From assembly GCA_000708525.1 (NCBI GenBank), contig JMRP01000010.1, forward strand, positions 1-64,000: 64,000 bases of DNA, in the 5' to 3' direction. Shown here piece by piece: positions 10,867 to 29,861 of the stretch. The position numbers and the translations under genes were made by a program. Source of the stretch: Cyanobium sp. CACIAM 14 (GTDB lineage Bacteria; Cyanobacteriota; Cyanobacteriia; PCC-6307; Cyanobiaceae). How positions within the stretch are numbered: position 1 is the first letter of the stretch; every line of letters begins with the position of its first letter. The notes beneath the pieces were generated by a model. That model was not told where the DNA came from. It worked only from the letters and a program-made list of their open reading frames with translations, and did not search any database.

Positions 10867-11271
10867 ATGAGGGTGGTGCCGTTACGACTGCAGCCCGGCG
10901 ACGATCTGCGCCGCGCACTGGAAGCCTGGATGGGGGAACAGGAGGAGCAGGCGGGGTGTGTGATCAGTGCCGTCGGCAGCCTGTCGGTGGCCCAGGTGCG
11001 CTTTGCCGGAGCGGCCGAGGCCACGGCCATCCGCGGCGAGCTGGAGATCCTCAGCCTGGCCGGCACCCTCTGCACCGATGGCGCCCATCTGCACATCGCC
11101 GTGGCCGACGCCGATGGAGCGGTGCTCGGCGGCCATCTCTGCGCCGGCTCTCTGGTGCGCACCACCGCCGAAGTGGGGCTGGGGCTGCTGCCGGACTGGC
11201 AGTTCCAGCGGGAGCTGGATCCGGCCACCGGCTGCGCCGAGCTGCGGATCAGTCCTCGGGCCCTGGGCTGA
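10867..11271 (+). CDS. DUF296/PPC-domain protein
   Basis: This 134-residue single-domain protein has the PPC (plants and prokaryotes conserved) fold pattern: RLQPGDDLRRALEAWM, CVISAVGSLSVAQVRFAG, ILSLAGTLCTDGAHLHIAVADADGAVLGGHLCAGSLV and TTAEVGL. In bacteria this family stands alone and its role is poorly known; in plants the same domain joins AT-hook DNA-binding proteins. It is the first intact gene after the cobalamin riboswitch, but no known link ties the family to B12. Its 3' end overlaps the opposite-strand gene by 23 bases. Confidence 0.82.
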   Translation: MRVVPLRLQPGDDLRRALEAWMGEQEEQAGCVISAVGSLSVAQVRFAGAAEATAIRGELEILSLAGTLCTDGAHLHIAVADADGAVLGGHLCAGSLVRTTAEVGLGLLPDWQFQRELDPATGCAELRISPRALG

Positions 11272-11446
11272 GCGGCGGCAGGCGCCTCTCCACCTGCAGG
11301 AACACCAGCCAGGCCACGCCGGCGCTGAGGCCGCCGGTCCAATCGTTGCGCAGCAACTCCACCACCGCCACTGTGCTGGCGCCGATGCGGAGGCCACGCA
11401 GCAGGAAGCGGCCCAGCTTCTCCAGCGTCTCCAGGTTCACCGCCAT
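11249..11446 (-). CDS. Small membrane protein, unknown
   Basis: This protein of about 65 residues has an amphipathic start (LETLEKLGRFLLRGLRIG) and two short hydrophobic segments (GASTVAVVELL, SAGVAWLVFL). I do not recognise the family. The ATG at 11446 is preferred to one at 11503, because the upstream extension is Arg-rich and unlike protein. It follows the two coiled-coil genes on the same strand by 25 bases and may belong to their operon. Confidence 0.5.
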   Translation of the reverse strand: MAVNLETLEKLGRFLLRGLRIGASTVAVVELLRNDWTGGLSAGVAWLVFLQVERRLPPLSPGPED

Positions 11447-11471
11447 CGGCTGCCGCCTGCGCAGAGGTGAT

Positions 11472-11981
11472 TCAGGTTGGCGGCAACTCAGGGGTCGTCG
11501 CAAGTTGGGCGATCGCCTCCGGAGGCACGCCCACCTGCCGGGCGATCAGCCGCACCAGCTGCTCCAGCCGATCGAGCCGCAGCTCGAGGGCATGCAGTTC
11601 GAGGGCCCGCAGCTCAGCGGCATCTGCCTGGGCCCGGGCCTTGCCACCACCGGCAACGGCCTTGGTGCCCCTGGCGGCCCTGGCGGGGAGGGCGCTGCGC
11701 AGGGGTGGACCCTCCGGGTGGCTGAGCAGCAGCTCGATGAGCTGGTCTTTGGTCTTGCCGCTGACCCGCGGAAGAGCCCGCTGTCTGCAGAAGCTGAGCA
11801 GGACATCCCTTGTCTGTCCTTTCAGCTCCTCGCGACTGGCCCGGGCCTCCCCCGCCAGCACCGGTGTTGACTGGGGGGCGGAGGGGTCGCCCAGCTCCTC
11901 CTGGAGCCCGCGGTAGAGGCGGGCATCGGACTGGGCCAGGTCGCGCAGGGTGGCCCGCAGGCTGTCAGTGAGCTGGCCCAT
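11472..11981 (-). CDS. SAP-like motif protein, unknown
   Basis: This 169-residue protein has a central segment LLSFCRQRALPRVSGKTKDQLIELLL that resembles a SAP motif, a short helix-loop-helix used to bind DNA or RNA. The C-terminal third (RALELHALELRLDRLEQLVRLIARQVG) is a predicted coiled coil. It overlaps the upstream gene by 17 bases, so the two are coupled. A nucleic-acid-binding or structural role is possible. The full family is not known to me. Confidence 0.55.
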   Translation of the reverse strand: MGQLTDSLRATLRDLAQSDARLYRGLQEELGDPSAPQSTPVLAGEARASREELKGQTRDVLLSFCRQRALPRVSGKTKDQLIELLLSHPEGPPLRSALPARAARGTKAVAGGGKARAQADAAELRALELHALELRLDRLEQLVRLIARQVGVPPEAIAQLATTPELPPT

Positions 11982-12465
11982 GGCCCTCCGTGCCGCCGGG
12001 CGGCAGCCCCCCGGTCTTCTCCAGGAATTCCTGGCGCTTCCGGTCCAGCTGCACCACGCGTTCCCTGGTGCGGGTCCAGCGGTTGATGAAGCGGATCACC
12101 GCCTGCACCAGCCCGCCGAGGAAGGAGCCGCCCTGATAGCTCTTCCCGCCCAGCTTGTACCGCCCGAATTCGTTCACCAGGTCGTCACCCGCATCTTCCA
12201 GATCTCCCGCAATCGCGGTCACGATCTCCAGCATCTGATAGATGTCCGTGCGCACGGAGGCTTCCCTTGCCGCAAGATCCAGCAGCCGCTGCCGGAGCTG
12301 GGCCGTTTCCCCGCGCGCCCTGGCGGCCAGGCTGCGGTGCTGGCCGCGGCTGCGCATGGAGCTCTTGTAGCAGTTGCGCAGCTGCAGGTACACGCGGTTG
12401 AGCTCCTCCCGGCTCAGGGGTTCGGGATCGGGCGGAAAGTCGGTGGTGGGTGGAAGGACAACCAT
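11965..12465 (-). CDS. Coiled-coil protein, unknown
   Basis: This 166-residue mostly helical protein contains LSREELNRVYLQLRNCYKS, AQLRQRLLDLAAREASVRTD and a mid-protein segment YQMLEIVTAIAGDLEDAGDDLVNEFGRYKLGG, followed by a short hydrophobic stretch (FLGGLVQAVIRFINRW). It is the first gene of a minus-strand set with the SAP-like protein. Together with the plus-strand coiled-coil pair at 13.4-14.6 kb it suggests a small structural or partition-like module. No family was recognised. Confidence 0.5.
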   Translation of the reverse strand: MVVLPPTTDFPPDPEPLSREELNRVYLQLRNCYKSSMRSRGQHRSLAARARGETAQLRQRLLDLAAREASVRTDIYQMLEIVTAIAGDLEDAGDDLVNEFGRYKLGGKSYQGGSFLGGLVQAVIRFINRWTRTRERVVQLDRKRQEFLEKTGGLPPGGTEGHGPAH

Positions 12466-12521
12466 GCGGCCGGATCATCAGCGGCAATTCTGCCTGGTGC
12501 CGCACCCTGGGCCGGAACGAG

Positions 12522-12677
12522 TCAGGGTGCAGAACTATTCACTGGCTGCATAGCGAAGGCCTGCAGCACCACCGCCGGTCTGAGCTTGTTGGGCTCCGGA
12601 GCCCGGAGATCCTGAGCGGGAACGCCAGGATCTCTGCGCCAGTCAACGGTGACGATCTGCCCGGCCAGGAGCTCCAC
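12522..12677 (-). pseudogene. MazF/PemK-type toxin N-terminal remnant
   Basis: The minus-strand frame from a GTG at 12677 reads LLAGQIVTVDWRRD, then APEPNKLRPAVVLQ, and stops after 51 residues. The blocks G-x-I-V-x-V-D-W-R and E-P-N-K-L-R-P-A-V-V are characteristic of the first third of a MazF/PemK-like RNA endonuclease subfamily. About ten extra residues separate the blocks and the catalytic remainder is missing, so it is almost certainly inactive. It starts 9 bases after a small gene that may be its antitoxin. Confidence 0.65.
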
Positions 12678-12685
12678 TCTGTTGT

Positions 12686-12829
12686 TCAGCGGCTGTGGGG
12701 GTCAGGGATGGCCCAGTCGTCGATGAAGGCCCTCGCCTCCGGATCCGCAGCAATGTGCTCAGCGACAGATTTGCTGTGAACCCGAATCCGGGCGCGCAGG
12801 GCACCCATCCCACTGACCGAGCTGCTCAT
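12686..12829 (-). CDS. Possible small antitoxin of the MazF remnant
   Basis: This short frame of about 47 residues contains GALRARIRVHSKSVAEHIAADPEARAFIDDW. It sits just upstream of the MazF-type remnant, where its antitoxin would be expected. The family is not clear, and the assignment rests mainly on position. The surrounding 12466-13131 interval shows no other convincing gene. Confidence 0.35.
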   Translation of the reverse strand: MSSSVSGMGALRARIRVHSKSVAEHIAADPEARAFIDDWAIPDPHSR

Positions 12830-13131
12830 CTCCACAACCCGTTGCCCCTCCTGTTCCCGCTGGCGCACGGGAAAGGGTGCAGCGAGATTCCCGGTGGACG
12901 GATCGGCTGGGGTCATGGGGGCAGCTTCCGCAGCCAACTGCGTGGAATCCCTTCAAGGCGAAGGGCACATCCCGGGTACCGCTCTGCCCTGGCTCCACCT
13001 ACTCGAGACGGCACTGCCCGGCCCGCCCTGCGGAGGTATGCGGGGGCACTGCTCTTTCGCAGGAGAAAAGTGCCAGAACGTCAGGATCGGTGGAGGCTTG
13101 GCACAGGTGTTTCGAGGACCCCTTCCGTTCC

Positions 13132-13344
13132 ATGAACCAGATCGACCTTCCCCTGGCCGCTGAACTGGTGCTGGCCCTGCTGCTGGTGGCCACCCTGGAC
13201 CATCCCCTCCGGCCTGCGGCGTTGCCGGAGCAGCCATTGGAGGATCCCGCGCCGGCGGGGTGGACGCCGGAGACCGACCGTCACGCCCAGCGCATCCTGC
13301 GCCTGGAGCGGCGCCGTGGTGTGCCCCAGCACCCGCTGTCCTGA
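13132..13344 (+). CDS. Small protein with one membrane segment, unknown
   Basis: This 70-residue frame starts at an ATG after a Phe-Arg-rich upstream stretch. Residues 6-22 (LPLAAELVLALLLVATL) are hydrophobic; the tail is Pro- and Arg-rich. No family was recognised. It lies 66 bases before the coiled-coil gene pair on the same strand and could be unrelated. Confidence 0.35.
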   Translation: MNQIDLPLAAELVLALLLVATLDHPLRPAALPEQPLEDPAPAGWTPETDRHAQRILRLERRRGVPQHPLS

Positions 13345-13410
13345 GGGCAAGAATCGATGGAGCTTCCTAGAATTTGCGGCGACACGGTCACAGGACAGGC
13401 GGGGATCGCG

Positions 13411-14106
13411 ATGCTCGGCGGTGCAGACCAGAAGGCGCTGTTCGACTACTGGCACGACAGGGTGCAGCTGCAGAACTTCGATCGCATCGGCGCCAGGGAG
13501 CATGTCACCACGCAGGAGCTGCGGCATGAGTGCACGAACTACGACGCCCTGAGGCACCTCGAAGCCGTTCAGGCTCTCGACGAGCTGGAACGGTGCCGGG
13601 TCATCGCGATCATCAAATATGAGTCCACCGCCAAGGTGCTCCAGCGACGCACGGGACTGTTGCGGGAGTATGCCCGCGCCTGCGAAAAGCATGCTCAACA
13701 CCATAGCAAAAAGGAAAAGGGACTTCTCTCCGTCATACGCAAATTCAAGGACATCCTCAAGGGCAAGGACAGCTACATCGGGCGACTGGAATCACGCATT
13801 AAGGCCCTACAGGCGGAGAACGAAGCACTGCGCACCGAACAACAGCAATCTAAAGCCGAGTCGCAGTTGCAAACGGAGCTGGAATCTCTGCAGCGCGCCT
13901 TTGAGGCTGAGGTGGTGCGCCGCCAGCAACTGGCCAGGAACAACCAGAGCCTCGGTGGCCGGCTCGCCCACACCAACCGCTACCGGCGCGAGCGCGACGA
14001 GCTGCGCGAGGCCCTCAGGATCGAACGGCAGACCAGCGAGGCGCTGCGACAGGAACTGGAGCAACTGCGCAGCGGGGAGCCGCTGGGCCTGGGCCTCGCG
14101 GAGTGA
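13411..14106 (+). CDS. Long coiled-coil protein, unknown
   Basis: This protein of about 231 residues begins LGGADQKALFDYWHDRVQL. From residue 100 onward it is a continuous coiled coil rich in Glu, Gln, Arg and Leu (for example RIKALQAENEALRTEQQQ, ELESLQRAFEAEVV). An ATG 54 bases earlier is possible, but a TAGAAT box (13368-13373) lies between the two, which fits the later start. It overlaps the next gene by 4 bases. The long coil suggests a scaffold or filament role. No family was recognised. Confidence 0.55.
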   Translation: MLGGADQKALFDYWHDRVQLQNFDRIGAREHVTTQELRHECTNYDALRHLEAVQALDELERCRVIAIIKYESTAKVLQRRTGLLREYARACEKHAQHHSKKEKGLLSVIRKFKDILKGKDSYIGRLESRIKALQAENEALRTEQQQSKAESQLQTELESLQRAFEAEVVRRQQLARNNQSLGGRLAHTNRYRRERDELREALRIERQTSEALRQELEQLRSGEPLGLGLAE

Positions 14107-14582
14107 GCACCATGGCCCGCAGGTCTTCCCCACCGGCGAACGGGGCCAAGCCAGCCGCCAAAGCCCGGCGTAAGCGCCAGAAGGATCCGTCGCTGGCCGA
14201 CCTCAAGCGCCAGGTGTTGGGCCTGGCCAAGGTGTCCGGCACCAGGGAGCTCAAGCGAACCAACGTGGATCTGAGCCATCTCGATTTCCGCCTCAAGGCC
14301 AGCTGGCGCTCCGCCCTGGAAGTGCTGCAGCAGGCGGAGGAAGCCATGGCCGACTGGGACAGCAACCCATCGGAGGAGTACAAGACGTTGTTCGCCGAGA
14401 TCGATCAGGCGGCGGCGGCCTACAGCGCCTCGATCGAGCGGGGCTTCAAACTCAGTGACCAGTTGCTGCGGGCGGCCGACGATCTCGAGGCCTTCGCCGG
14501 TGAGCTGCAGACCGAGGCCGAGGAACTCAAAGCGATCGAGCAGGTCTCCCGCAGGCAGCGCCGGGTGCGTTCGCTGAACTGA
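14103..14582 (+). CDS. Basic-tail helical protein, unknown
   Basis: This 159-residue protein has a Lys/Arg/Ala-rich N-terminal tail (about 30 residues, AAKARRKRQKDPSLADLKR) suitable for contact with nucleic acid, then helical segments (SWRSALEVLQQAEEAMADW, DDLEAFAGELQTEAEELKAIEQV). It starts with GTG inside the preceding stop codon (an ATG lies 9 bases further), so it is coupled to the coiled-coil gene. No family was recognised. Confidence 0.5.
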   Translation: MSTMARRSSPPANGAKPAAKARRKRQKDPSLADLKRQVLGLAKVSGTRELKRTNVDLSHLDFRLKASWRSALEVLQQAEEAMADWDSNPSEEYKTLFAEIDQAAAAYSASIERGFKLSDQLLRAADDLEAFAGELQTEAEELKAIEQVSRRQRRVRSLN

Positions 14583-14601
14583 GTCTGGAGCAGCGTGAGG
14601 C

Positions 14602-15093
14602 TCAACCAGCTCCAGCGGGGTCTGAAAGCTGCAGCATCAACGTCCAGGTGCTGAGAGGCGAGGGGCGGAATCCGAGCGAGCGGTAGAACGCGGCCGCCTG
14701 CTCGTCGATCGCGTGCACCAGCAACACCCGGGCCCCGATCAGGCGCCTGGCGGCAAGGCTGCGCCGCAGAGCATCGGCAACCAGGGCACGGCCCAGCCCC
14801 CGGCCCTGATGGCGCCGATCCACCGCCAGCCGGCCCAGCACCACGACGGGCAGGGGATCCGGCATGTTGCGCCGCAGGGCCCCAGGCACCTCGGCCAGCA
14901 CGATCGCCCCGGCCGACAGACAGGCGTAGGCGATCACGTGGCTCCCCTCCTCCGGGCAGATCACCACCGTGCGGGAGACACCCTGGCGCTCATTGGCCAG
15001 GGCCCGCTGCTGCAGCCAGCGGTTCAGCGCGGCGTTGCCGCAGTCGAAGCCCTCCAGCCGATGCTGCGCGCCGAGGGACTCAGGCGGACGCAT
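14602..15093 (-). CDS. TacT-type GNAT toxin
   Basis: This GNAT acetyltransferase of about 163 residues opens LGAQHRLEGFDCGNAALNRWLQQRALANERQGVSRT, the standard start of TacT-like toxins. It has the acetyl-CoA loop RRHQGRGLGRALVADAL and the C-terminal AAFYRSLGFRPSP with the catalytic Tyr. Such toxins acetylate charged tRNAs and stop translation. The ATG at 15093 lies inside the antitoxin 3' end (14-base overlap). All key motifs are present, so it is probably functional. Confidence 0.88.
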   Translation of the reverse strand: MRPPESLGAQHRLEGFDCGNAALNRWLQQRALANERQGVSRTVVICPEEGSHVIAYACLSAGAIVLAEVPGALRRNMPDPLPVVVLGRLAVDRRHQGRGLGRALVADALRRSLAARRLIGARVLLVHAIDEQAAAFYRSLGFRPSPLSTWTLMLQLSDPAGAG

Positions 15094-15361
15094 GCCAGGG
15101 CTGCGGCATGGCGAGCAGCCGATCGATGCTGGCCTGATCCTCAGCGGCAGCGGCAGGATCCTCCAGGTCGGCAAGGAGGGCCTTGGTCTGCTCCGGCGTC
15201 AGCGAGAACAGGGTGCGATCCAGCAGCACATCCCGCGCCCGCTCCTGACAGCTGCGCAGGATGAACTCGGTGCGGCTGATGCCCTCCGCCGCAGCCGCCT
15301 GGTCGATCAGCTGGCGCTGCTCGGCCGTGGCCCGCAGCTGCAGCACCTGATCCCGCGGCAT
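15080..15361 (-). CDS. TacA-type (DUF1778) antitoxin
   Basis: This 93-residue DUF1778 protein has an N-terminal ribbon-helix-helix (VLQLRATAEQRQLIDQAAAAEGISRTEFILRS) and a toxin-binding tail (FSLTPEQTKALLADLEDP). The order antitoxin then overlapping GNAT toxin is the standard TacAT arrangement. Dimers bind the operon promoter and wrap the toxin. The pair looks complete. Confidence 0.9.
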   Translation of the reverse strand: MPRDQVLQLRATAEQRQLIDQAAAAEGISRTEFILRSCQERARDVLLDRTLFSLTPEQTKALLADLEDPAAAAEDQASIDRLLAMPQPWHASA

Positions 15362-15399
15362 GGCCCACTCTCGCTGTCATGACATTGTAATGCGCCCCC

Positions 15400-17535
15400 T
15401 CAATCCGCCTCATACACCGCCAGGGCCTCCTGCAGCTTCCGGCGGTGCTCGTCGCGCAGGGCGCTGGGGCTCTCGATGCGGATGCCGGCCCCGAAGCCGA
15501 ACAGCCAGTTGCGCAGGTCGATGTCGCGCTCCACGGTCCAGGGGGGCAGATCGAGCTCCACCGGATAGGGGTGGGTGTCGGCCGGCGAACCGGGCTCCAG
15601 CACGTGCGGTGCGTTGGGGTGGTGCCACCAGCGCTCGCCCGGTAGGGGCCGGGAGAAGCGGGTGTGCTCGATCGGGTAGCGCTGCAGCCCCTCGCGGATG
15701 AAGGCGAAGCTCCAGCCCTGGCAGCAAAAGCGCAGGGTCAGCAGCTGCCGGGCGCGCAGGCGGGGACTGGGGCTGGCCAGGCGCAGCTGGGCGTTCAGAT
15801 CATTCCCGAAGTAGATGCCGCCGCTGTGGTGCAGCAGCAGCTCCAGGCGCCGCAGGGCCTGGGCGTGGGCGTCGTCGCCGCGGCGGGTGCCGCGCTCGCT
15901 GCGGCGCAGGGCCAGGCGGTCGAGCCGCTCGCTGCGGATCAGGCCCACGCCCGTGCCGATGGCGTCCTCCTCGTAGACGAGATACCAGCCGATGTTGTGG
16001 AACAGCAGCTGCAGCGGCCACACCCGGAAGCTGCCGCTGGGACTGTCGGCGAAGGAGGCCACCGAGGCGTAGCGCTCCAGTTCGATGCGGCGCCGCTCCA
16101 CGATCGCCGTCTCCAGCGCCTCGGCCTGGCGCTCGGCCGCCAGCGAATCGGGCCGCACCAGGGCGGAACTCACGATCGAGCGGTTCGCGAACGCCCGCAC
16201 CGGCGGCGCACCGTCCACCGCGAGGCCTCCCCAGGCGAGCCGCTGCTCCAGTTCGGCCAGCAGGTCCTGGGCGGAGGGATCGGCCAGGCGCCTTGCCGCC
16301 TGGCTCACCACCCCATGGATCTCCCGCAGCCGCTGGGCCGAAAGCAGGGCCGTGCCCAGGGCGTAACCGTGGCGCACGTTGTCGTTGCGGCTGCGGAAGC
16401 CGTAGGGGGTGAGCAGTTTCTCGAGGTCCTTGCGCAGGGTGGCCGCCTCGCCGGGGAGGTAGGCGCCGGGGATGGCCTCGAGCCGGGCGATCAGGTGCTC
16501 CGACAGGGGGATGCCGGCGGCGCGATCGAAGGGGTGCTGCAGCAGGTGGCGCAGCAGCAGGAACACCCGCTCGAACACCGGCCCATCCCCCAGCGGCGGT
16601 ACGCCCCCGTGCACCCCGCCCAGCCACGCCTCCCCCTGCCGCGCCGGGCGGGGAGGCGGCAGCTGCAGGGGCGCCAGCGAGGGCTCGGCCGCGGTGAACC
16701 CGTTGGCCTCCAGCCAGGCCAGGTCGCCTTGGAGGGCGGCCGCATCGCCGTAGCACTCGCCGTGGAGCCGGCGCAGGTAGGCGGCGGCCCGATCGGCCAG
16801 GTCGCCCTCCGGCAGCGGCGACGCGATCGCCTCCATCTCGGCGCGGGTGGCGGGGTCGGCGCTGGAGAGCCCGGGCCAGGTGGTGAGCAGCCGCAGCAGA
16901 TGCAGGAGGCGCTCCAGGTCGAGCAGCCGGGAGTAGCCGTGCAGGCGGAAGCGGTTCTCGCGGTTGCGGGCCGAGCGGATGCGGTGCTCGAGGCGGGCCA
17001 GCTCGTCGCGCAGCAGCGGTTCGAGCTCCCGCTGGTGGGTGGGCTCCACCGCCACCAGCGCCGCGAACCCCTCGCTGCGGGAGGGCCCGAACACCGGATC
17101 GGCCAGGGCGGCGGCCAGCTCGCGGATCACCGGTTCGGGCACCAGGCGCGCCCGGGTCTGGTTCCACTGCAGGCAGGTGGCCAGGGGGGTGAACAGCCAC
17201 CAGCCGATCCACTCCACCGGAGCCGGCAGGGTGAGGGCCTGGGTGATGGCCAGGCGCCAGGGGCGGCGGGCGTGGGTGGCATCCACGATCACCGGAAGGC
17301 CGGCCGCCACGGCGTCGCGGATGCGCTGGTGCAGCAGGGCCTCGATGTCGCGCCACGGGCCCTGCACCGCCGCGTCGCCGAAGACCTCATCCCGCACCGC
17401 ATCGGTGGAGAGCACCACCGCGCCGGTGAGCTGCGCCAGCACGCCGGCCAATGTGGTCTTGCCGCTGGCGGGCGGGCCGATCAGCAGGTGGCAGCGCAGG
17501 GGCCGCTCCGGGGAGCTGGGCGGGGAACCAGGCAT
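15400..17535 (-). CDS. P-loop kinase / WYL-domain fusion protein
   Basis: This protein of about 711 residues starts with a P-loop kinase module (GPPASGKTT near residues 20-28, then VVLSTDAVRDEVFGD and PVIVDATHARRPWR), the layout of AAA_33 polynucleotide-kinase-like enzymes. A helical region of about 250 residues follows, and the last third carries a WYL-type domain (LLFHNIGWYLVYEED near residue 520). WYL domains sense ligands such as nucleotides and often control defence or DNA-repair genes. A nucleic-acid end-processing kinase joined to a WYL sensor suggests a repair or defence role, but this is inference. The ATG at 17535 is preferred over one 60 bases earlier. It is divergent from a LysR-type regulator gene. 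Confidence 0.72.
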   Translation of the reverse strand: MPGSPPSSPERPLRCHLLIGPPASGKTTLAGVLAQLTGAVVLSTDAVRDEVFGDAAVQGPWRDIEALLHQRIRDAVAAGLPVIVDATHARRPWRLAITQALTLPAPVEWIGWWLFTPLATCLQWNQTRARLVPEPVIRELAAALADPVFGPSRSEGFAALVAVEPTHQRELEPLLRDELARLEHRIRSARNRENRFRLHGYSRLLDLERLLHLLRLLTTWPGLSSADPATRAEMEAIASPLPEGDLADRAAAYLRRLHGECYGDAAALQGDLAWLEANGFTAAEPSLAPLQLPPPRPARQGEAWLGGVHGGVPPLGDGPVFERVFLLLRHLLQHPFDRAAGIPLSEHLIARLEAIPGAYLPGEAATLRKDLEKLLTPYGFRSRNDNVRHGYALGTALLSAQRLREIHGVVSQAARRLADPSAQDLLAELEQRLAWGGLAVDGAPPVRAFANRSIVSSALVRPDSLAAERQAEALETAIVERRRIELERYASVASFADSPSGSFRVWPLQLLFHNIGWYLVYEEDAIGTGVGLIRSERLDRLALRRSERGTRRGDDAHAQALRRLELLLHHSGGIYFGNDLNAQLRLASPSPRLRARQLLTLRFCCQGWSFAFIREGLQRYPIEHTRFSRPLPGERWWHHPNAPHVLEPGSPADTHPYPVELDLPPWTVERDIDLRNWLFGFGAGIRIESPSALRDEHRRKLQEALAVYEAD

Positions 17536-17706
17536 CGCCGCAGCCTGACCCTGAAGGTGGCCATTGGCAAGCCCTTCCTGCGAAGAAGCACACACCGATG
17601 CAGACAGGAACAGCTTTTCGCCCCAAGACGCTGCTCTTTCGCAGGAGATTCAAGCGCCCGTGGGCGCCCCGGCCGGAAGCTTCCTGCAACACCCCCGAGA
17701 TCCCGC

Positions 17707-18591
17707 ATGGACCTCAGCATCGACTCCCTGCCCAGGCCGGCGGAGCGCTACCGCCTCCCCGCCCTGCTGCAGGACATCCGCCTGCTCGATCTGCTGGAGC
17801 TCAGCGGCACCGGCCAGGAGGCCGCACGCCTGGCCTGCTTCAGCCAGCCCACCGTGAGCCGCCGCTACCGCTCGCTGGCCCAAGATTTCGCCCTGGAGCT
17901 GAACCGGCGCCGGCCCGTGGGCTGCCGCTACGGCACCACACCGGCGATCCAGCTGCTGCGCCTGAGCTGCCGTGCGCACCGCCTCATGGCCGGCGTGGCG
18001 CGGCTGGGGGCGGACGTGCTGCTCCAGCCCTTGCTGGCGGGCTGCTCCTGGCTGCTGCCGGTGCCGCCCCGGTTCCGGCCGGTGGAGAGCTGGCTGGAGC
18101 TGGTGCGCCAGGGGGTGCTCGATGGCGCCCTGGTGTCGGGGCTGGAGCTGCGGGAGCAGGCCCCGCCGGACACCCGGGAGCTGGAGCTGCTGCCGCTGGG
18201 CGCGCTGCCCCTGGCGCTGGCCATGGATCCGGCCGCTGCACCCAGCTCCGGAGACAGCCTCCCCCCAGTGCTGGTGCCCAACCGGGCGATAGGCCAGGGG
18301 CTGCAGCAGGCCCTGACGGAGCGCGGCCTCAGCCTCCGGATCAGCGGCCGCACCTGCCAGACCCCGGCGCAGTGGCTGCAGCTCCTGAGCCGATCATCCC
18401 TGGCGATGCCCCTGCCGGCCCTGGAGCCGGCGAGCTGGTGGGAGCCGCTGCAACGCCAACCCCTGCCGCAACCGCTGCACCTGCCCCTCTGGCTGGCGCT
18501 GCCGGCCAGCTGGCGCCAGCAGACGGTGCTGGTGCATACGGCCGAGCAGCTGCGGGACCAGGCGGGGTTGATCGCGGGGAAAGGGGGATGA
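17707..18591 (+). CDS. LysR-type transcriptional regulator
   Basis: This protein of about 294 residues has an N-terminal winged helix (DIRLLDLLELSGTGQEAARLACFSQPTVSRRYRSLAQDF) and a longer effector domain without a clear periplasmic-binding signature. It resembles LysR-type regulators in the cyanobacterial style, but the first helix differs from classical LysR and the C-terminal part is Leu/Pro-rich. The effector is unknown. It is transcribed away from the kinase/WYL gene with about 170 bases between them, so it may control that gene. Confidence 0.68.
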   Translation: MDLSIDSLPRPAERYRLPALLQDIRLLDLLELSGTGQEAARLACFSQPTVSRRYRSLAQDFALELNRRRPVGCRYGTTPAIQLLRLSCRAHRLMAGVARLGADVLLQPLLAGCSWLLPVPPRFRPVESWLELVRQGVLDGALVSGLELREQAPPDTRELELLPLGALPLALAMDPAAAPSSGDSLPPVLVPNRAIGQGLQQALTERGLSLRISGRTCQTPAQWLQLLSRSSLAMPLPALEPASWWEPLQRQPLPQPLHLPLWLALPASWRQQTVLVHTAEQLRDQAGLIAGKGG

Positions 18592-18802
18592 GGGAGGCGA
18601 GGGCTGTATCCGGGGAAACAGCGGCATGGGCTATAACTCCGGAGAGGAAAGTATGCACTGCGCGGATAGTGGAGCGAAGTCGAGTTCAGGGCCCCGTGTT
18701 GGTGGTTCACAGAAGCTCGTGCAAGCTCCAGACTGGCCTGAGCGTTCCGTTTAGCCCCCTGAAGCAGGCCCAGCCAACCTTCCTGGTGACGGAGCCCTGC
18801 TG

Positions 18803-20380
18803 ATGGACGTGTTTTCCTTTCGCGACCGGGTCGTCGAGGACTACGGGCAGTTCAGTCGCGGCTTCACCCAGATCAAGGCTCCGGACCTGCAGGAGTTTGT
18901 GGATGGGAGCTACGGCAAGGGCGAGTTCTGGCCCTCGCCGCTGATCCAGCTCAACCCCAGCTTCGTGAGCGGCGGCGCCATCGGCGAGCTGGTTGAGGCG
19001 GGGCTGCTGCACCCCGAATGCAGCCGGATCTTCCGCTGGAGCAAGGACCATGGCCCCGGGCAAGAGCTGCAACTCCATCGCCACCAGCGCGAAGCGATCG
19101 AGATTGCGCGGGGCGGCGGCATCTTTGTCGTCACCTCCGGAACCGGCTCGGGGAAGTCGTTGGGCTACATCATCCCGATCGTGAATCGGGTGCTGGAAGC
19201 CCGTGAGGCTGGCGATCTGCAGAAGCGCATCCGGGCGATCGTGATCTACCCGATGAATGCCCTGTGCAACAGTCAGCTGGAGGAATTACAGAAATATCTG
19301 GGCCTGGGCTATCCAGACGGCCCGAGAGTCACCTTCGCTCGCTACACGGGCCAGGAGAGCGATGAGGAACGTGAAAAGATCAAGAACGATCCCCCCGATA
19401 TCCTGCTAACAAACTACGTGATGCTCGAGTACATCCTCACCCGGCAGGATCCGCTGGATCAGAAGGTGATCAGCGATGCCAGGGGACTGGAGTTCCTGGT
19501 GCTCGATGAACTGCATACCTATCGTGGCCGCCAGGGTGCGGATGTAGCCCTGCTGGTGCGGCGGGTGCGGCAGAAACTCAACAGCAATCTGATCTGTATC
19601 GGCACCTCGGCCACCATGGCCTCGTAGGGTACGGCCAGGGAACGCAATGCCACGGTTGCGGCGGTTGCGAGCAAACTCTTCGGCACGGCGATCCCGAGTG
19701 AGCACATCGTCACCGAAACGCTGCAGCGCGTCACGGAAGGCGATCTGCCTGGCCCCGAGGAGTTGAAGGCAGCCCTGCAGGCGGATCTCTCAGAACCAGC
19801 AACGAAGGAATGGAAGGCAGCTGATCTTCGCCAGCACCCGCTGGCCCGGTGGGTTGAGCTGAAACTCGGCCTGGAGCGGGAAGACGGGCTGCCTGATGGC
19901 GAGTGGGTGCGCTGCAGGCCCCACACCCTGCAGGAGGCCAGCAAAGACCTGGCAGAACAGACAGGCCTCGCACACGAGCAGATCCTGGCCACACTCCGGG
20001 ATTTCCTGCTGTCCGCCTACAGGGTGGAGGTGGGCCCCAATCGCCGCTTCTTCGCCTTCATCGATCTGGAGCCGGCCCTCGGCGAACCCTGGCGCGAATG
20101 GGTGGTGACGCGTCTGCAGATGGATCTGGCCGCCGCCGCCGCCATCGAGCAGCGCCTCGGCCAGCTCAACGCCGCCATTGCCGCCGACAGCCGCCTCGGC
20201 AAGGCCTTCCGGATCGGCCACAGCTACGTCACCCCCACCCAGAGCCTGGAGGGTCGCTCCAGCCGCGACTGGTTCGCCGAAGTGGTAGCCAGCGAACTCA
20301 AACCCCTGCTCCAGGAGTACTGGTTCGATGCCCCCGAGGAAGCCGAACGCCAGGCCGCAGCCCTGTTGGAGGGGTGGTGA
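18803..20380 (+). pseudogene. DEAD/DEAH helicase fused to McrB C-terminus, with amber codon
   Basis: Residues 1-274 are the N-terminal part of a very large DUF1998-type DEAD/DEAH helicase of the kind found in defence systems such as Druantia: LHRHQREAIEIARGG, TSGTGSGKSLGY (residues 111-121), LLTNYVMLEYILTR, LDELHTYRGRQGAD, CIGTSATMAS. A TAG at 19625-19627 interrupts the frame exactly where homologues have Glu in MASEGT, and the same frame continues with helicase sequence. At about 20040 it switches in frame to the McrB C-terminus: FFAFIDLEPALGEPW, AFRIGHSYVTP, LLQEYWFDAPEEA. The helicase C-terminal half and the McrB GTPase domain are both gone, so a deletion joined two neighbouring defence genes. 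Confidence 0.82.
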
Positions 20381-20452
20381 GTAAACACTTCAGCGGGTCT
20401 CTTGTGGCCAGCAGCTTGATACAAGTAGCCTGGATGTAGTCTGCCTCTCGTC

Positions 20453-20902
20453 ATGACTGATCTAGAAACTGCCCCAGGTGGCGCTCTCGACAAGAAAAGC
20501 TGGCATGACATCTTATTGCTGCCTCTTACTTTTCTCGGGCTTAAAGATGATAAGGAAATTCAATTTATTAAATTCCTCAGGAGTACCCAGTGGGACAAGC
20601 TGCAAGCCGAGGACTTTGTGAATTTTACCCGCAAAGAACGTGTTGACTTGATCAATCAATACAGCAGCTCAATCTATCTCAGGAAGCACACCAAGGCCAC
20701 CAATAGGCTCGCGCTTGTCGCTGTGGTTTTGACTGGGTTCACGGGTTATGTGGCATTTGAGAACCTCAAGGATTCAAGGCAGGCGGCGATGTCCAGAAAT
20801 TCACCTGCCAAGATTATTGTCACAAGCGTCCCTCCGGTCCATCTCGTCACCGGAGATGCCCCCGCAACTTCTCCCGCGCGGCAACGAATCATGAAGCCAT
20901 AG
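20453..20902 (+). CDS. AT-rich single-pass membrane protein, unknown
   Basis: This 149-residue protein has one hydrophobic segment (RLALVAVVLTGFTGYVAF, about residues 83-100), a charged N-terminal domain (TFLGLKDDKEIQFIKFLRS, RKERVDLINQYSSSIYLRKH) and a disordered tail. Composition is distinctly more AT-rich than its surroundings. It lies between the McrB tail and McrC, where mcrB and mcrC normally overlap, so it was inserted later or sits at a recombination point. Upstream is a small palindrome CTTG-ATA-CAAG. I do not recognise the family. Confidence 0.5.
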   Translation: MTDLETAPGGALDKKSWHDILLLPLTFLGLKDDKEIQFIKFLRSTQWDKLQAEDFVNFTRKERVDLINQYSSSIYLRKHTKATNRLALVAVVLTGFTGYVAFENLKDSRQAAMSRNSPAKIIVTSVPPVHLVTGDAPATSPARQRIMKP

Positions 20903-20935
20903 CCCGAGTATCCGATCTTTTCTTTCTTGTGGACG

Positions 20936-21996
20936 ATGAGCATCCCGGTTCGCAATATCTGGTGGCTCATGCTCTACGCCTCCGATCTGGGGCCTGCCGC
21001 CAACCACGCCAAGCTCGCCGCCGAGGCCCTCCCCGACGACATCCCCGATCTGGTGGCCGAAATCCTGGCCCGCGCTGTGGAGCAACGGCAACGGCGCCAA
21101 CTCACCACGGCCTTCCTGCCCAGAGAAGCGGTGCTCAGCCGGGTGCGTGGCCGCATCGATCACCTCACCACCAGTCGCCATCGGCTGTTGGCCGAAGGGC
21201 AGGTGGCCTGCCGGTTCGAAGAACTCTCCGTCGACAGCCCCCGCAACCGCTACGTGCGTGCCGCGCTCGACACCGTTGGGCGGCTGGTGCGCAAACCCGA
21301 GCTGGCCCACCGCTGCCGCGGCCTGGCCCATGGCCTGCGGCTGCAGGGGGTGGTGGGGGAAGCGCCGACCCGCCAGCAGATCAGCAGCGAACGCTTCGGC
21401 CGTCACGACCAGGCCGACCAGCCGATGCTCGCCGCCGCCCGGCTGGCGATGGATCTGGCCCTGCCCACGGAAGAGGCCGGGCCCAACGCCGTGCTCGACC
21501 GAAGCGTTGCGTGCACTGGCTGCGGCGGCTGTACGAGAAGGCGATCGGTGGCTTCTACCGCCTGCATCTCGATGAAGCCCACTGGCTGGTGAACACCGGC
21601 AAGGCGCTCACGTGGCCATATGAGGAGGCCACCCCTGGTCTGGCCCAGGTGTTCCCCTCGATGCGCACCGACATCGTGATCGATCGCCGCGATCTGCCCC
21701 AGCGCCTGGTGATCGACACCAAATTCACGGGCGTGCTCGGCTGCGGCTGGTACCGCGAGAAGTCGCTGCGATCCGGCTATGTGTATCAGCTGTATGCCTA
21801 CCTTCACTCCCAGGTGGGCCGCGGCGACCCCTGGGCCGACCAGGCCTCAGGCCTGTTGCTGCATCCCGCCATCCATGGCGACTTCGATGAATCGGTGCGA
21901 ATCCAGGGGCATCGGCTGCGCTTCGCCACCGTGGATCTTGCTGGGAGTCACGGGGAGATCAGGGAGCGGCTGCTTGGGCTGGTACCGGAGGCTTGA
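20936..21996 (+). pseudogene. mcrC: McrC subunit, frameshifted
   Basis: The start SIPVRNIWWLMLYASDL, then LLAEGQVACRFEELSVDSPRNR and AMDLALPTEEAGPNAVLD are the N-terminal two-thirds of McrC, the nuclease subunit of the McrBC modified-DNA restriction enzyme. The frame is lost at about 21505-21515, and the rest (VHWLRRLYEKAIGGFYRLHL, MRTDIVIDRRDLPQRLVIDTKFTG, containing the PD-(D/E)xK residues) continues in another frame to 21996. Both halves are well conserved, so a single small indel broke the gene. Its partner McrB survives only as a C-terminal piece, so the system is dead. Confidence 0.88.
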
Positions 21997-22028
21997 TGCA
22001 TGCCGCCCCACTTCACACAGCAATGCCC

Positions 22029-22250
22029 TCAGCCGTTGAACTCATCGATGGGTGTTTCGGTATCCCAGGCCTTGCCGATGGAGCGGTCCAGGCGCTTGAG
22101 CAACGTGGCAAAGGTTTCGCCGTCCCGGCGCACCAGCAGCACCGGACAGTCGTAGCTGGTGCTGGCGGAGGCCACACACTCGGCCCCCACCCGACCCACT
22201 GTGATGTCGCCACCGTCCTCCAGGATTGCCTCGATGTTGGGATAGCTCAT
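22029..22250 (-). CDS. Small hypothetical protein
   Basis: This 73-residue protein reads YPNIEAILEDGGDITVGRVG, DCPVLLVRRDGETFATLLKRLDRSIGKAW. It looks globular, with one beta-rich half and one helix. No family was recognised. It is divergent from the RecQ-PRTase gene with 47 bases between the starts, so the two share a promoter region and it may belong to the same system. Longer in-frame starts exist but have unlikely Arg/Cys-rich sequence. Confidence 0.5.
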   Translation of the reverse strand: MSYPNIEAILEDGGDITVGRVGAECVASASTSYDCPVLLVRRDGETFATLLKRLDRSIGKAWDTETPIDEFNG

Positions 22251-22297
22251 GGTGTCGCGCCCAATGTCTCGCCTGTTCCGTGTCCTGCTGCGGTGGA

Positions 22298-24388
22298 ATG
22301 TCCGTGATGGCTTCCGTGATTTTCCAGCACACCCGCGCCCTTGAGTTGTTGCGTGCCGGCTCGGGCAACGCCGATGCTCAGTTCCGCGACGGCCAGCTGG
22401 AGGCCATCCAGGCAGTCTGTGAGCCATCCAGCCGTGTGCTCGTCGTGCAGAAGACCGGCTGGGGCAAGAGCTTCGTCTACTTCATCGCCACCAAGCTGCT
22501 GCGGGAAGCCGGCCGCGGGCCAGCCCTGCTGATCTCTCCCCTGCTGGCGCTGATGCGCAACCAGATGGCCGCCGCTGAGCGGATGGGCTTGGTTGCCCGC
22601 ACGGTGAACTCCACCAACCTCGACCAGTGGCAGGAGGTGGAAGAGCAGGTGAGCTCTGGCGCGATCGACATCCTGCTGATCTCTCCGGAGCGGCTCAACG
22701 CTCCTGCTTTTGTGCGCGGTCCCCTCGCCCAGCTCAACCCCAGCCTGGTGGTGATCGATGAGGCCCATTGCATCTCCGACTGGGGGCACGACTTCCGCCC
22801 CGACTACCGCCGTGTGGGCCGGCTGGTGCGGACCCTGCCCAACGTGAGCCTGCTGGCGACCACCGCCACCGCCAGCAACCGGGTGATGGCCGACCTGCAA
22901 CGCGAACTCGGCCCTGATCTCACCGTGCAACGGGGCGATCTCCACCGCCCCTCCCTCACCCTCCAGAGCCTGCGCATCCCCAGCCAGCCGGCCCGTCTGG
23001 CCTGGCTGGCGCAGACGCTGCCGGGCCTGGAAGGCAGCGGCATCATCTACGCCCTCACCACCCGCGATGCCGTGCTGGTGGCGGAGTGGCTGCAGACCTG
23101 CGGCATCGACGCCCGCGCCTACACCGGCGCCATGGACAGCGGCGATCGTGAGCGACTGGAGGAGGCCCTGATCGCCAACCAGTGCAAGGCGCTGGTGGCC
23201 ACCACGGCCCTTGGCATGGGCTACGACAAGCCCGATCTGGGGTTCGTGATCCACTACCAGGTGCCCGGCTCGGTGGTCGCCTATTACCAGCAGGTGGGTC
23301 GGGCCGGCCGGGCCCTGCCCTCCGCCTACGGCGTGCTGCTCAGCGGCGAGGAGGAGCTCGCCATCACCGACTGGTTCATCCGCAGCGCCTTCCCCACCCG
23401 CGACCAGGTCGAGCGCCTCCTCGAAGCCCTGGAACACGGCCCCGAAGAGGGCTGCACCGAAGCCGAACTGCTGGCCCAGCTCAACCTGCCCAAGGGGCGC
23501 CTGCTGCAGGCGCTCAAGATCCTGTCGCTGGAGACACCTGCGCCGATCGGCAAGCAGGGCTCCCGTTGGCAGCGGCTGCCGGCGGCGCTCCAGCCGGCGT
23601 TCTGGCAGCGGGTGGAGCGCCTCACGGTGTTGCGCGATGCCGAGGCTCATCAGATGCAGGCCTATGTGGATCTGTCCTTCGGGGAGCACATGGCTTTCCT
23701 GATCGAGGCGCTCGACGGCGACCCCAGCACCGTGGGTCCGCCCACCCTGCCGCCCCTACCGGAGACGGTGCCGGACGACCTGGCCCGCGAGGCCGCCAGC
23801 TTCCTGCGCCGCCTGCGCATCACCATCGACCCCCGCAAGCAATGGCCCTCCGGCGGACTGCCGATCAATGGTCTCAAGGGGCGCATTCCTTCCAACCGCC
23901 TGGCGGAACCTGGAAAAGCGCTGAGCTTCTGGTCCGACGCCGGCTGGGCAGAACTGGTGAAACTCGGCAAGTATCAAACCGGCCACTTCGATGAGGCGCT
24001 GGTGGAGGGGTGCATGCGGCTGATCCAGCAATGGCGGCCGGCTCCCCCGCCCGAATGGGTCACCTGCATCCCCTCGCGGCGCCATCCCACACTGGTGCCG
24101 GCCTTTGCGGCTCAGCTGGCCGCCGCCCTTGGCCTGCCCTTTGTCCCTGCCCTGGAGAAGGTGCGCGACACCGCCCAGCAGAAGGCCATGGAGAACAGCA
24201 CCCAGCAGGCCCGCAACCTCGACGGCAGCCTCGCCATCACGGGCCCCATCCCCACGGGGCCTTGCCTGCTGGTCGACGACATGGTCGATTCCCGCTGGAC
24301 CTACACCGTGGCGGCCTGGCTGCTGCGCGAGCATGGAGCTGGCCCGGTGTTCCCCCTGGCCCTCGCCCAGACCGGTCAGAGCGACTGA
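22298..24388 (+). CDS. RecQ-type helicase fused to a ComF-like phosphoribosyltransferase
   Basis: This protein of about 696 residues has a RecQ-type SF2 helicase core: Walker A QKTGWGKS (51-58), LLISPLLALMRNQM, VIDEAHCISDWGHDFRPDYR, TATA box, GIIYALTTRDA and YYQQVGRAGRA. A winged-helix-like region follows. The last 150 residues form a phosphoribosyltransferase domain of ComF type: TCIPSRRHP, VRDTAQQKAMENSTQQARN and LLVDDMVDSRWT, the PRPP-binding loop. ComF-like domains occur with DNA uptake and repair. The gene is followed 24 bases later by a DprA-like gene. ATGs at 22298 and 22307 are both possible. The system role is inferred. Confidence 0.85.
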   Translation: MSVMASVIFQHTRALELLRAGSGNADAQFRDGQLEAIQAVCEPSSRVLVVQKTGWGKSFVYFIATKLLREAGRGPALLISPLLALMRNQMAAAERMGLVARTVNSTNLDQWQEVEEQVSSGAIDILLISPERLNAPAFVRGPLAQLNPSLVVIDEAHCISDWGHDFRPDYRRVGRLVRTLPNVSLLATTATASNRVMADLQRELGPDLTVQRGDLHRPSLTLQSLRIPSQPARLAWLAQTLPGLEGSGIIYALTTRDAVLVAEWLQTCGIDARAYTGAMDSGDRERLEEALIANQCKALVATTALGMGYDKPDLGFVIHYQVPGSVVAYYQQVGRAGRALPSAYGVLLSGEEELAITDWFIRSAFPTRDQVERLLEALEHGPEEGCTEAELLAQLNLPKGRLLQALKILSLETPAPIGKQGSRWQRLPAALQPAFWQRVERLTVLRDAEAHQMQAYVDLSFGEHMAFLIEALDGDPSTVGPPTLPPLPETVPDDLAREAASFLRRLRITIDPRKQWPSGGLPINGLKGRIPSNRLAEPGKALSFWSDAGWAELVKLGKYQTGHFDEALVEGCMRLIQQWRPAPPPEWVTCIPSRRHPTLVPAFAAQLAAALGLPFVPALEKVRDTAQQKAMENSTQQARNLDGSLAITGPIPTGPCLLVDDMVDSRWTYTVAAWLLREHGAGPVFPLALAQTGQSD

Positions 24389-24412
24389 GCACCTGTCCCA
24401 TTGGCCGCCCTG

Positions 24413-25741
24413 ATGCCAACCCCCTCCGCCAACACCCAGGCCGTACTGCTGCTCACCTCTCCGCTGCTGCAGGAGGGGGGAAGGGCTGCCAGCAAGGAGC
24501 CCGTGCTCTCGGCAGCGGAGTACGCCCAGTTGGCGGCCGCTCTGCAGCAGGAGCAGTGTCAGCCGGCCGACCTGATCAACGGGACAAGAGACACCCTGCT
24601 CACCACTCTGTCGGCATCCTTCGCCGTCGATCGGCTCAACCGTCTGCTCTCCCGCGGCTTTCAGCTCAGCCAGGCGGTGGAGCACTGGGCCAACCGCTCG
24701 ATCAGCGTGATCGGCCGCGCGGATCCCGCCTACCCCCGGCGGTTCAAGCAGCGACTCAAGCGCTCCGCCCCGCCCCTGCTGTATGTCTGCGGCAACCTGG
24801 AGCTCCTGAACGCTCCCGACCTGGCCGTGGTGGGCTCCCGGAGCACTCCGGAAGCGCTGCTCCGGCAGGCGGAGGGGGTGGGCGCTCTTGCGGCTGCAGC
24901 CGGGGTGGTGATCGCCTCCGGCGCCGCCAGGGGCGTCGATGAAACCGCGATGGTGGGCAGCCTCGCCGCCGGGGGCTGCGCCATTGGCGTGGTGGCCGAC
25001 AGCCTCGAGACCATGAGTGCCCGGCCCATCTGGCGCCAGGCGCTGCTGGACGGCCGTCTGCTGCTGCTCTCCAGCGATGCGCCCAGCGCCCGCTTCCAGG
25101 TGTGGCGCGCCATGGGCCGCAACAAACTGATCTACGCCCTGGCCGATGCCGCCCTGGTGGTGAGCTCCGCCAAGGGGGAGGGCGGCACCTGGGCCGGCGC
25201 CACCGAACAGCTGCAGAACCTCCGCTTCTGCCCTGTCCATGTGCTCAGCGATCCCCGCGGCGGCCCGGGCCTGGCGGCCCTGGCGGATCTCGGCGCCCGC
25301 CCGTGGCCCGCACCCGCCTCAGCCGAGGCCCTGCAGGCTCTGCTGCGCAGCACCGAACAGGTCCCTGCTTCCGCCGTCATCGCTCCTGAGCAGGTTCAGC
25401 AGCGCTGCTTGCTCGAGGGTGTCTCTCCGGAGACAGCGCAAGCCAGCAGCGAGCCCAGCAACGCGAGAAGCAACCCGCTCATCAACGAACCGGTGCCGGG
25501 TTCTCCGCCGAAGCCGGCAGGGGAGCAGCAGACCCAGGCGCCGGCGGCCGCCTTGGCTGCTTTCGTCGACGAGCTGGTGCTCGGCTGTCTGCACGAGCCG
25601 CTCAGCATCGATGCGCTGGCCGAACTCCTCGATGTCTCCAGGACCGAGGTGAGGCGCTGGTGTCAGCGGCTGGTGGAGCAGGACAGAGCCCACAAGCTCT
25701 CCAAGCCGGTGCGCTACGTGCGCCTGCAGCCACCCGGTTGA
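24413..25741 (+). CDS. DprA/Smf-like protein with C-terminal winged helix
   Basis: This protein of about 442 residues has the DprA Rossmann core: YPRRFKQRL, LYVCGNLELL, VVGSRSTPE, VIASGAARGVDETA, FQVWRAMGRNKLIYALADAALVV and GEGGTWAGATE. DprA loads RecA onto single-stranded DNA in natural transformation. Here a long linker leads to an extra C-terminal winged helix (SIDALAELLDVSRTEVRRWCQRL), and the usual DprA N-terminus is replaced by a different segment. The linkage with a RecQ-PRTase gene and a HEPN-like gene suggests a specialised defence version rather than the housekeeping DprA. TTG at 24401 is a possible alternative start. Confidence 0.82.
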   Translation: MPTPSANTQAVLLLTSPLLQEGGRAASKEPVLSAAEYAQLAAALQQEQCQPADLINGTRDTLLTTLSASFAVDRLNRLLSRGFQLSQAVEHWANRSISVIGRADPAYPRRFKQRLKRSAPPLLYVCGNLELLNAPDLAVVGSRSTPEALLRQAEGVGALAAAAGVVIASGAARGVDETAMVGSLAAGGCAIGVVADSLETMSARPIWRQALLDGRLLLLSSDAPSARFQVWRAMGRNKLIYALADAALVVSSAKGEGGTWAGATEQLQNLRFCPVHVLSDPRGGPGLAALADLGARPWPAPASAEALQALLRSTEQVPASAVIAPEQVQQRCLLEGVSPETAQASSEPSNARSNPLINEPVPGSPPKPAGEQQTQAPAAALAAFVDELVLGCLHEPLSIDALAELLDVSRTEVRRWCQRLVEQDRAHKLSKPVRYVRLQPPG

Positions 25742-25753
25742 AGCAGCGGCTCC

Positions 25754-26350
25754 ATGTCTCCGCTTGCGCCTGACGCCGCCGCCGCCAACGCGGCCCGCAC
25801 CATAGCCCTGCAGATGCTGGAAGAGCGAGGCCGCGGCGCGGTGCTGGTGGGCGTGGCCCGGGTGGATGCCGCCCTGGAGCATCTCCTGCAGGCGCTGATG
25901 GCGCCAGGACCCTCCAAGGCGGATGGTCTGTTTCTGCCGGATCGGCCCCTGGGGTCCCTCTGGGCCAAGGTGGCCCTGGCCCGCCGGCTGGGGCTGATCG
26001 ACGCGCCGGTGGAGCGGGCCCTCTCCGTGCTGCGCAAGCTGCGCAATGCCTTCGCCCACTCGGCCGAATCGGCCTCCTTCAACGACCCCGTCCACAGCGC
26101 CCGCCTGGCAGAGATTTATGCAGCGGCCCGCGCCAATCCCCTCTGGGCTCCGCTGGAGGCCGCGTTGGCGGCCCAGCCACCCTCCGCCCGCGGCCCACTG
26201 GAGCCCGCCCTGCGCGAGTACATCCTGCTGATCACGATCCTGGTGGCCTTCCTCGAGGCCACCGCCCAGCAGCTCCGGCCCTATCGGCCGCCGGTGGTGA
26301 TGGGCTTTGCCGGCATCCGCAGGGTCGTCAGCACCCCTGCCGATTCCTGA
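25754..26350 (+). CDS. MtlR/HEPN-like protein
   Basis: This 198-residue all-helical protein contains WAKVALARRLGLIDAPVERALSVLRKLRNAFAHSAE. The R97-x4-H102 motif and the lead-in sequence match the mannitol-repressor (MtlR) family, which shares the HEPN-type fold. HEPN proteins with this motif are often RNases that act as toxins or defence effectors. No mannitol genes are nearby. It begins 12 bases after the DprA-like gene on the same strand, so it is probably the third gene of a recQ-PRTase / dprA-like / HEPN operon. Catalytic activity is inferred. Confidence 0.65.
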   Translation: MSPLAPDAAAANAARTIALQMLEERGRGAVLVGVARVDAALEHLLQALMAPGPSKADGLFLPDRPLGSLWAKVALARRLGLIDAPVERALSVLRKLRNAFAHSAESASFNDPVHSARLAEIYAAARANPLWAPLEAALAAQPPSARGPLEPALREYILLITILVAFLEATAQQLRPYRPPVVMGFAGIRRVVSTPADS

Positions 26351-28678: not shown

Positions 28679-28955
28679 ATGGCTGACTGCACCACCCCCG
28701 TGCCGGTCTACGCCCGCATTGTCACCCGTGAGGGCATTGAGGTATTCACGCAGCGATTGGTTGACAAGTTGTCTCCTGAAAAGGTGATCCTGTTTGGCTC
28801 CCAGGCGCGAGGAGATGCCCGCCTGGATTCCGATGCCGACATCCTGTTGGTGATGCCTTATGAAGGGCGTGCCTTTGCCAAGGGTCGTGATACCAGCAGG
28901 GCCTGCAAGCCTGGTTTTCGGGTTGATCTATTGCTCTGGCAGCGCCAGTCCTATG
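28679..28955 (+). pseudogene. MNT nucleotidyltransferase remnant
   Basis: The frame reads VTREGIEVFTQRLVDKLSPEKVILFGSQARGDARLDSDADILLVMPYEG and then CKPGFRVDLLLWQRQ, a paralogue of the MNT half of the 27598-28395 gene. At about 28945 it departs from the family and runs into the reverse complement of a VapC gene. The HEPN half is absent. This is a truncated duplicate, probably from recombination between repeated TA modules. Confidence 0.75.
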
Positions 28956-29774: not shown

Positions 29775-29861
29775 CGATGCCGGCCTCCGGGTGCGTTGAA
29801 ATCATCCTGACGGCATTCTGACAGCGCTTCGCCACCACAGAGCCCTTTCCGTCCCCACCCC

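Follow-up and report, generated by a model that had tools for sequence, protein, structure and literature searches.

A helicase-McrB pseudogene in Cyanobium sp. CACIAM 14, probably left by a deletion through an ARMADA-McrBC defence locus

The reading frame at 18803-20380 joins the start of a large defence helicase gene to the end of mcrB. It is a well-preserved genomic accident and no new kind of gene. The best explanation, to which we give a probability of about 0.86, is a pseudogene formed by one deletion through a composite ARMADA-McrBC phage-defence locus. The window is the whole stretch of DNA that was analysed, 64,000 nucleotides of contig JMRP01000010.1. It contains the following features around this frame.

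15403-17595, minus strand: P-loop/WYL-domain gene of the upstream flank (PADLOC WYL model, 4.4e-15).
18803-20059, plus strand: 5' remnant (residues 1-417) of an ARMADA-type YprA/MZB helicase gene.
19625-19627, plus strand: in-frame amber codon, aligned with Glu in the nine nearest relatives.
20042-20380, plus strand: 3' remnant of mcrB, the last 112 codons and the stop, from the match to McrB C-termini.
20050-20059, plus strand: likely deletion join, CTTCGCCTT(C), within the overlap of homologies, where helicase and mcrB have a common codon phase.
20382-20936, plus strand: 555-bp insert splitting the mcrB/mcrC overlap of relatives, between TGAG copies at 20378-20381 and 20937-20940.
20936-21996, plus strand: mcrC pseudogene, one base short after 21498 compared with three relatives (frame shift).
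22226-24388, plus strand: PsyrT-like RecQ-type helicase, apparently intact (PADLOC PsyrT 1.2e-256, profile 5-688 of 689).
24401-25741, plus strand: PsyrA-like DprA-family gene, apparently intact (PADLOC PsyrA 1.7e-118, profile 3-395 of 398).
25754-26350, plus strand: downstream flank gene, found after McrC in G110, G270 and G167 and after the methyltransferase in G134.
28936-30154, plus strand: second ARMADA relic (last bases of SNF2, a toxin-antitoxin-like insert, 5' end of the methyltransferase).

The fused frame is on the forward strand and has 526 codons. It ends with its own TGA and contains a single internal stop, TAG at 19625-19627, after which it remains open for a further 250 codons. 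Over the same interval, the remaining two forward frames have 14 and 9 stops. The initial annotation had given these limits and this single stop correctly. It had also assigned the 5' part to a helicase N-terminus and the 3' part to the end of McrB, with most of both genes lost, and the searches agree with it. The 5' part matches Pfam DEAD (1.2e-27) and has 90-92% amino-acid identity to its two nearest relatives. The intact 1815-residue YprA/DUF1998 (MZB) helicase of G029 matches with residues 1-417 through 20059, that is, helicase-like sequence continues past the TAG. Used as a query on the own genome, this helicase had a single real match, with its residues 1-417 at 18803-20059, and the remainder of the protein was found nowhere. 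The other two rows of that search (E 2.7e-4 and 5.8e-4) were short matches to other helicase C-domains.

A search of 60 genomes with the last 107 residues of the frame gave McrB matches in six, the own genome included (best E outside it, 9.9e-58). The other five have open McrB frames of 739-763 codons, and G001 shows an additional weak match (E 8.1e-9). Five same-genus McrB proteins of 735-757 residues match from residue 624-646 to their end, at 20042-20377, with 72-85% identity. When the own genome was searched with full McrB, residues 640-752 were placed at 20039-20377 and there was no other match. Pfam found no significant family in the 3' part; the best was NusA_N at 0.023, under the cut-off. 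In the 745-residue McrB of G011, the AAA_5 motor occupies residues 479-637, a region lost here. The chimera cannot function as either parent, because translation ends after 274 residues and the McrB part is without the AAA+ motor. The 274-residue product contains the first RecA lobe only, without the second RecA lobe, the MZB or the nuclease-like domains.

The amber codon was examined in the relatives. A contig scan with the helicase part gave at least 595 stretches in at least 577 relatives, and the best 80 were used. The initial annotation placed the TAG correctly and expected Glu after the TSATMAS motif. This holds for nine of the nine nearest relatives; as an invariant residue it does not hold. 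Among the best 80, the codon that follows the match encodes Glu in 47, Asp in 16, Gly in 8, Thr in 5, and Ser, Gln, Met and Ile in one each. These codons were read at the match end without realignment, and the Ile comes from L088, whose match ends one residue early. None of the 80 has a stop at this codon. Since the residue varies and is never a stop, the TAG is a lesion at a tolerant position, beside what we take to be motif III. Programmed recoding of the TAG was rejected as the main reading, given this count of 0 in the best 80 of at least 577. Two other broken helicases also differ from this one in the kind and place of the break: that of G035 has a TGA at residue 545, and that of G019 a frame shift.

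The second element of the 3' side is mcrC. Its two halves match in different frames, and the second half is a weak Pfam match to McrBC. The window copy lacks the two parts that McrBC requires, the AAA+ GTPase motor and a full-length McrC. The 555-bp insert before it encodes an ORF of 149 aa (20453-20902) with a likely membrane segment, judged by eye. This ORF had no Pfam or NCBIfam match at 0.01 and no relative at E<=0.001 among 399 other family genomes. We tried 11 loci and placed both gene ends in 10; mcrB and mcrC overlap in six of the 10. The other four carry cargo, so this overlap is a recurrent insertion point. Three cargoes include a nucleotidyltransferase module (MNT-HEPN-like by eye): G011:C15 at 24519-25140, G035:C72, where it lies among other genes, and G167:C70. 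The cargo of the window differs, having the 149-aa ORF instead of this module. The amber codon, the mcrC frameshift and the 555-bp insert show that both systems are dead.

The join itself can be located closely. Helicase and mcrB homologies overlap at 20042-20059. Of the blastn alignments that extend to the join, those with helicases end at 20058-20059 and those with mcrB begin at 20041-20042. The peptides encoded in the overlap are RRFFAF in the helicase and RRRFAF in McrB, in a common codon phase. The RFAF/FFAF residues of the two genes are thus read in one phase at this point, which explains why the join is in frame. Such a common phase gives an in-frame product without any selection. The in-frame join described initially is thus correct. 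Its position, given as about 20040, has to be changed: it falls within 20042-20059, most likely at 20050-20059.

At 20050-20059 the window reads CTTCGCCTTC. An exact copy of the first nine letters of this word occurs in two of the 16 distinct helicase sequences compared and, for mcrB, in six of nine distinct sequences. The two helicases are L147, the nearest by DNA (84.8%), and L154. The other 14 of the 16 have runs of 5-8 bp in common with the join of the window, which weakens the case for a deletion at this exact word. Among random breakpoint pairs, runs of at least 9 bp appear with a frequency of 7e-5 (G011) to 1.4e-4 (G029), and runs of at least 6 bp with 0.002-0.003. Because long common runs are so rare at random breakpoints, the parents likely shared a run of 9-10 bp at the join. 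We infer the exact word and its length from these comparisons.

We looked for conservation of the chimera across genomes, a point raised in the initial annotation, with a 201-bp query over the join. The family run covered 400 genomes from a larger group; 23 matched at E<=1e-6, the own genome included. None of the 399 other family genomes has a match spanning the join at this threshold. Their matches are limited to query positions up to 101 or from 82 onwards, and the own genome alone covers the join. A conserved fusion family was therefore rejected on this sample of 399 other genomes. In the genus run (42 genomes, 19 matched at E<=0.001, own included), G007:C125 gave a weak 51-bp match over the join (76%, E 9.5e-4), outside the 1e-6 matches, which we take as chance. 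The same query had no match in plasmid and phage collections.

The initial annotation attributed the fusion to a deletion between two neighbouring defence cassettes. A comparison with relatives bears out this arrangement: G011, G029 and G062/L016 have an intact helicase and McrB on one contig, on one strand and head-to-tail in this order. In G011:C15, a single strand carries the helicase, an SNF2 ATPase, an Eco57I-type methyltransferase, McrB, a nucleotidyltransferase insert and McrC. The points corresponding to the join are about 12.9 kb apart in this locus (11264 to 24183). G029:C27 has a similar row, with HipA/HipB-like and other genes (by eye) between the methyltransferase and McrB. In G062:C11, the helicase at about 94.6-89.1 kb is followed by SNF2, the methyltransferase and the start of McrB; in the genome of L016, McrB lies at 78117-80366 of a contig with the same length. 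G110:C83 is collinear from the helicase 3' end, through SNF2, the methyltransferase, McrB and McrC, to the gene found at 25790 in the window.

The flanks also point to one site. The DNA upstream of the remnant is syntenic with the helicase-carrying loci L009, L012, L015, L016, L154 and L155. L155 (G134) aligns with the window at 80.7% over 15394-19938, and again over 25751-26307 after its helicase, SNF2 and methyltransferase. As this locus aligns on both sides, the remnant of the window lies at a site occupied elsewhere by ARMADA.

On the other hand, the nearest helicases by DNA, those of G286 (84.8%), G270 (83.2%) and L010 (80.6%), were not seen beside McrBC. In G286 the contig breaks off within the methyltransferase, and in G270 ARMADA and McrBC are found on separate contigs. 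The relatives with linked helicase and McrB belong to a more distant helicase subtype (71-74% DNA). For this reason, the support for the deletion reading comes from how the genes are arranged in a related subtype. In the seven genomes behind eight named loci, three have an McrB match. It is absent from G423 (L009, L012), G424 (L010), G425 (L011) and G426 (L013).

Recombination between unlinked loci could also have joined the two genes, for example if an McrBC fragment was imported into an ARMADA copy. We consider it unlikely. The separate contigs of G270 would suit it, and so would G134, where ARMADA occupies this site and neither McrB nor McrC was matched in the 20 kb examined. The second ARMADA relic downstream and the MAG with two ARMADA helicases (L009, L012) would suit it as well. 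However, the order and orientation from helicase to McrB in G011, G029 and G062 suit a simple deletion. Moreover, the gene that follows McrC in G110 and G270 is the gene downstream here.

An assembly artefact is less probable still. The assembler might have joined two loci at a short word, or the TAG might be a base error; the genome is a draft of 71 contigs with 96.56% completeness, and the word shared at the join is short. Nevertheless, a mis-join alone does not account for the failure to find the lost portions of either parent elsewhere in the assembly. The flanks correspond by synteny to a single site in relatives, and mcrC has a lesion of its own.

Least credible is a working gene, either a 525-residue read-through chimera or a 274-residue RecA1 fragment acting as a dominant-negative or regulator: the open codons after the TAG and the low dN/dS of the window branch (mostly probably older than the deletion) speak for it, but the fusion is absent from 399 other family genomes, neither motor is complete, mcrC is broken, and tRNA-Lys(ttt) was the only tRNA found on scanning the 64-kb window. 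It is just as improbable that the in-frame fusion is a recent gene birth, whose read-through product or RecA1 fragment would modulate PsyrTA or another defence system.

Under the deletion reading, the ancestor would have carried an ARMADA type I operon (YprA/MZB helicase, BrxHII/DrmD-like SNF2, PglX/DrmMI-like methyltransferase) followed by mcrB and mcrC on the same strand. Slipped-strand or end-joining repair may then have acted at a short sequence common to the helicase and mcrB genes. All the DNA between would have been removed, some 13 kb for an ancestor with the spacing of G011. The join would be in frame through the same residues, in the same codon phase, in both genes. The frameshift in mcrC takes away the partner of McrB too. 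We infer the single deletion and its repair route as parts of this explanation. The history of the locus is more complicated than one deletion, because a relic of the ARMADA middle lies 9 kb downstream.

For the region of this second relic, 26-34 kb, tblastx gave mostly GC-rich noise, so blastn was used. The methyltransferase of the relic has lost an internal segment at a shared CTGCAG, and its reading frame changes. Its gene order agrees with G063 and G270. An SNF2 query found no match in the own genome, and the methyltransferase is present there as this relic only. In addition, a part of PsyrT (22320-23810) has 86% DNA identity to a copy downstream of ARMADA in G063.

The intact row of the relatives appears to fit ARMADA type I by its helicase domains and gene order. 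The G029 helicase contains DEAD (3.3e-25), Helicase_C (1.3e-11) and MZB (7.6e-11), that is, the two RecA lobes and the MZB domain required; we take MZB to be the renamed DUF1998. The order with the helicase first, then SNF2 and the methyltransferase, is found in G011, G029, G062, G134 and G220. The best library match of the intact helicase is DruE3 of Druantia (3e-98). For the SNF2 ATPase, the best PADLOC model is DpdE of the Dpd system (2.3e-191, nearly full length), ahead of DrmD of DISARM and BrxHI/HII (2.8e-54). NCBIfam gives DrmD (1.4e-94) for this protein, and both families score below their NCBIfam cut-offs (DrmD 318 against 610, DpdE 172 against 500). The methyltransferase matches DrmMI (3.8e-63) and PglX (6.3e-12 and 2.1e-11). 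DUF559 (PF04480), presumably Vsr-like, was found in six of six helicase C-termini at E<=1, with the first member over the cut-off (23.2 vs 20.6 bits). A whole-protein Pfam scan found no DUF559 at 0.01. A PDB profile search with the helicase C-terminus found no Vsr structure; the best match was a helicase chain (E 0.24).

In PMC12458937, ARMADA is the disARM-related Antiviral Defense Array. Its type I begins with a YprA helicase, followed by a BrxHII-like and a PglX-like gene, and includes a C-terminal nuclease of Vsr type; according to the paper, many cyanobacteria have the order reversed. The relatives agree with this description in the helicase-first order, the SNF2, the PglX/DrmMI-like methyltransferase and the MZB/DUF1998 domain, and perhaps in the C-terminal DUF559-type domain. 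They fit less well in that the order is not reversed in those examined, and in that the best SNF2 model is DpdE. The window does not hold the intact set: only helicase residues 1-417 with the TAG remain, SNF2 is gone and the methyltransferase is a separate relic.

The pairing with McrBC is already in print. A DISARM-like association is particularly prevalent in some McrBC branches, according to a census (PMC11090510), and this is repeated in PMC12458937. G011, G029, G062 and G110 show the same pairing of McrBC beside a DISARM-like cassette as the one described there. The window differs, with 112 C-terminal codons of mcrB, a frameshifted mcrC and an insert between them. A literature search on ARMADA with YprA and McrBC found PMC12458937 alone; in another, for microhomology-mediated fusions of defence genes, none of the matches listed was relevant. 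The evidence supports the chimera as a decayed member of the known pairing of ARMADA and McrBC, an ordinary defence-island decay that is unusually legible.

The state of the helicase in other genomes was also considered. L010-L013 and L016 encode the intact protein, with lengths of 1816-1860 residues. That of L014 is interrupted by a stop at residue 545; those of L009, L015 and L017 run off their contigs. Ten same-genus genomes carry a close ARMADA helicase. Three of them are broken (own, G019 and G035), each differently; in six the frame stays open over a long stretch of 1788-1913 codons, and in G026 it is interrupted by the end of the contig. In G019, a single-contig genome (C1:2350000-2369000, L162), the helicase has a frame shift and SNF2 is matched only over its first 78 residues. 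The helicase with the TGA in G035 is on C25 (L136). Two ARMADA helicases seem present in G110 (C83 and C193), whose query ranges overlap and whose identities differ. L009 and L012 are ARMADA helicases on two contigs of one MAG (G423).

We estimated dN/dS over the helicase part. The value was 0.12-0.13 on the window branch, against 0.08-0.09 on that of L010 and 0.04 on that of L009; the uncertainty is large, these Nei-Gojobori values are rough, and several dS exceed 1. The low value of the window branch is compatible with most of the divergence having happened before the gene was lost.

This locus is a snapshot of the joint loss of neighbouring defence systems. One event appears to have disabled both ARMADA and McrBC, and its scar is still readable. 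It is also a caution for catalogues of defence genes, since automatic annotation could label such a scar as a helicase-McrB fusion. The three broken helicases among ten in the genus hint at a frequent turnover of ARMADA, with repeated loss. The clean in-frame join and this hint of repeated ARMADA loss in the genus are the most useful lessons of the finding.
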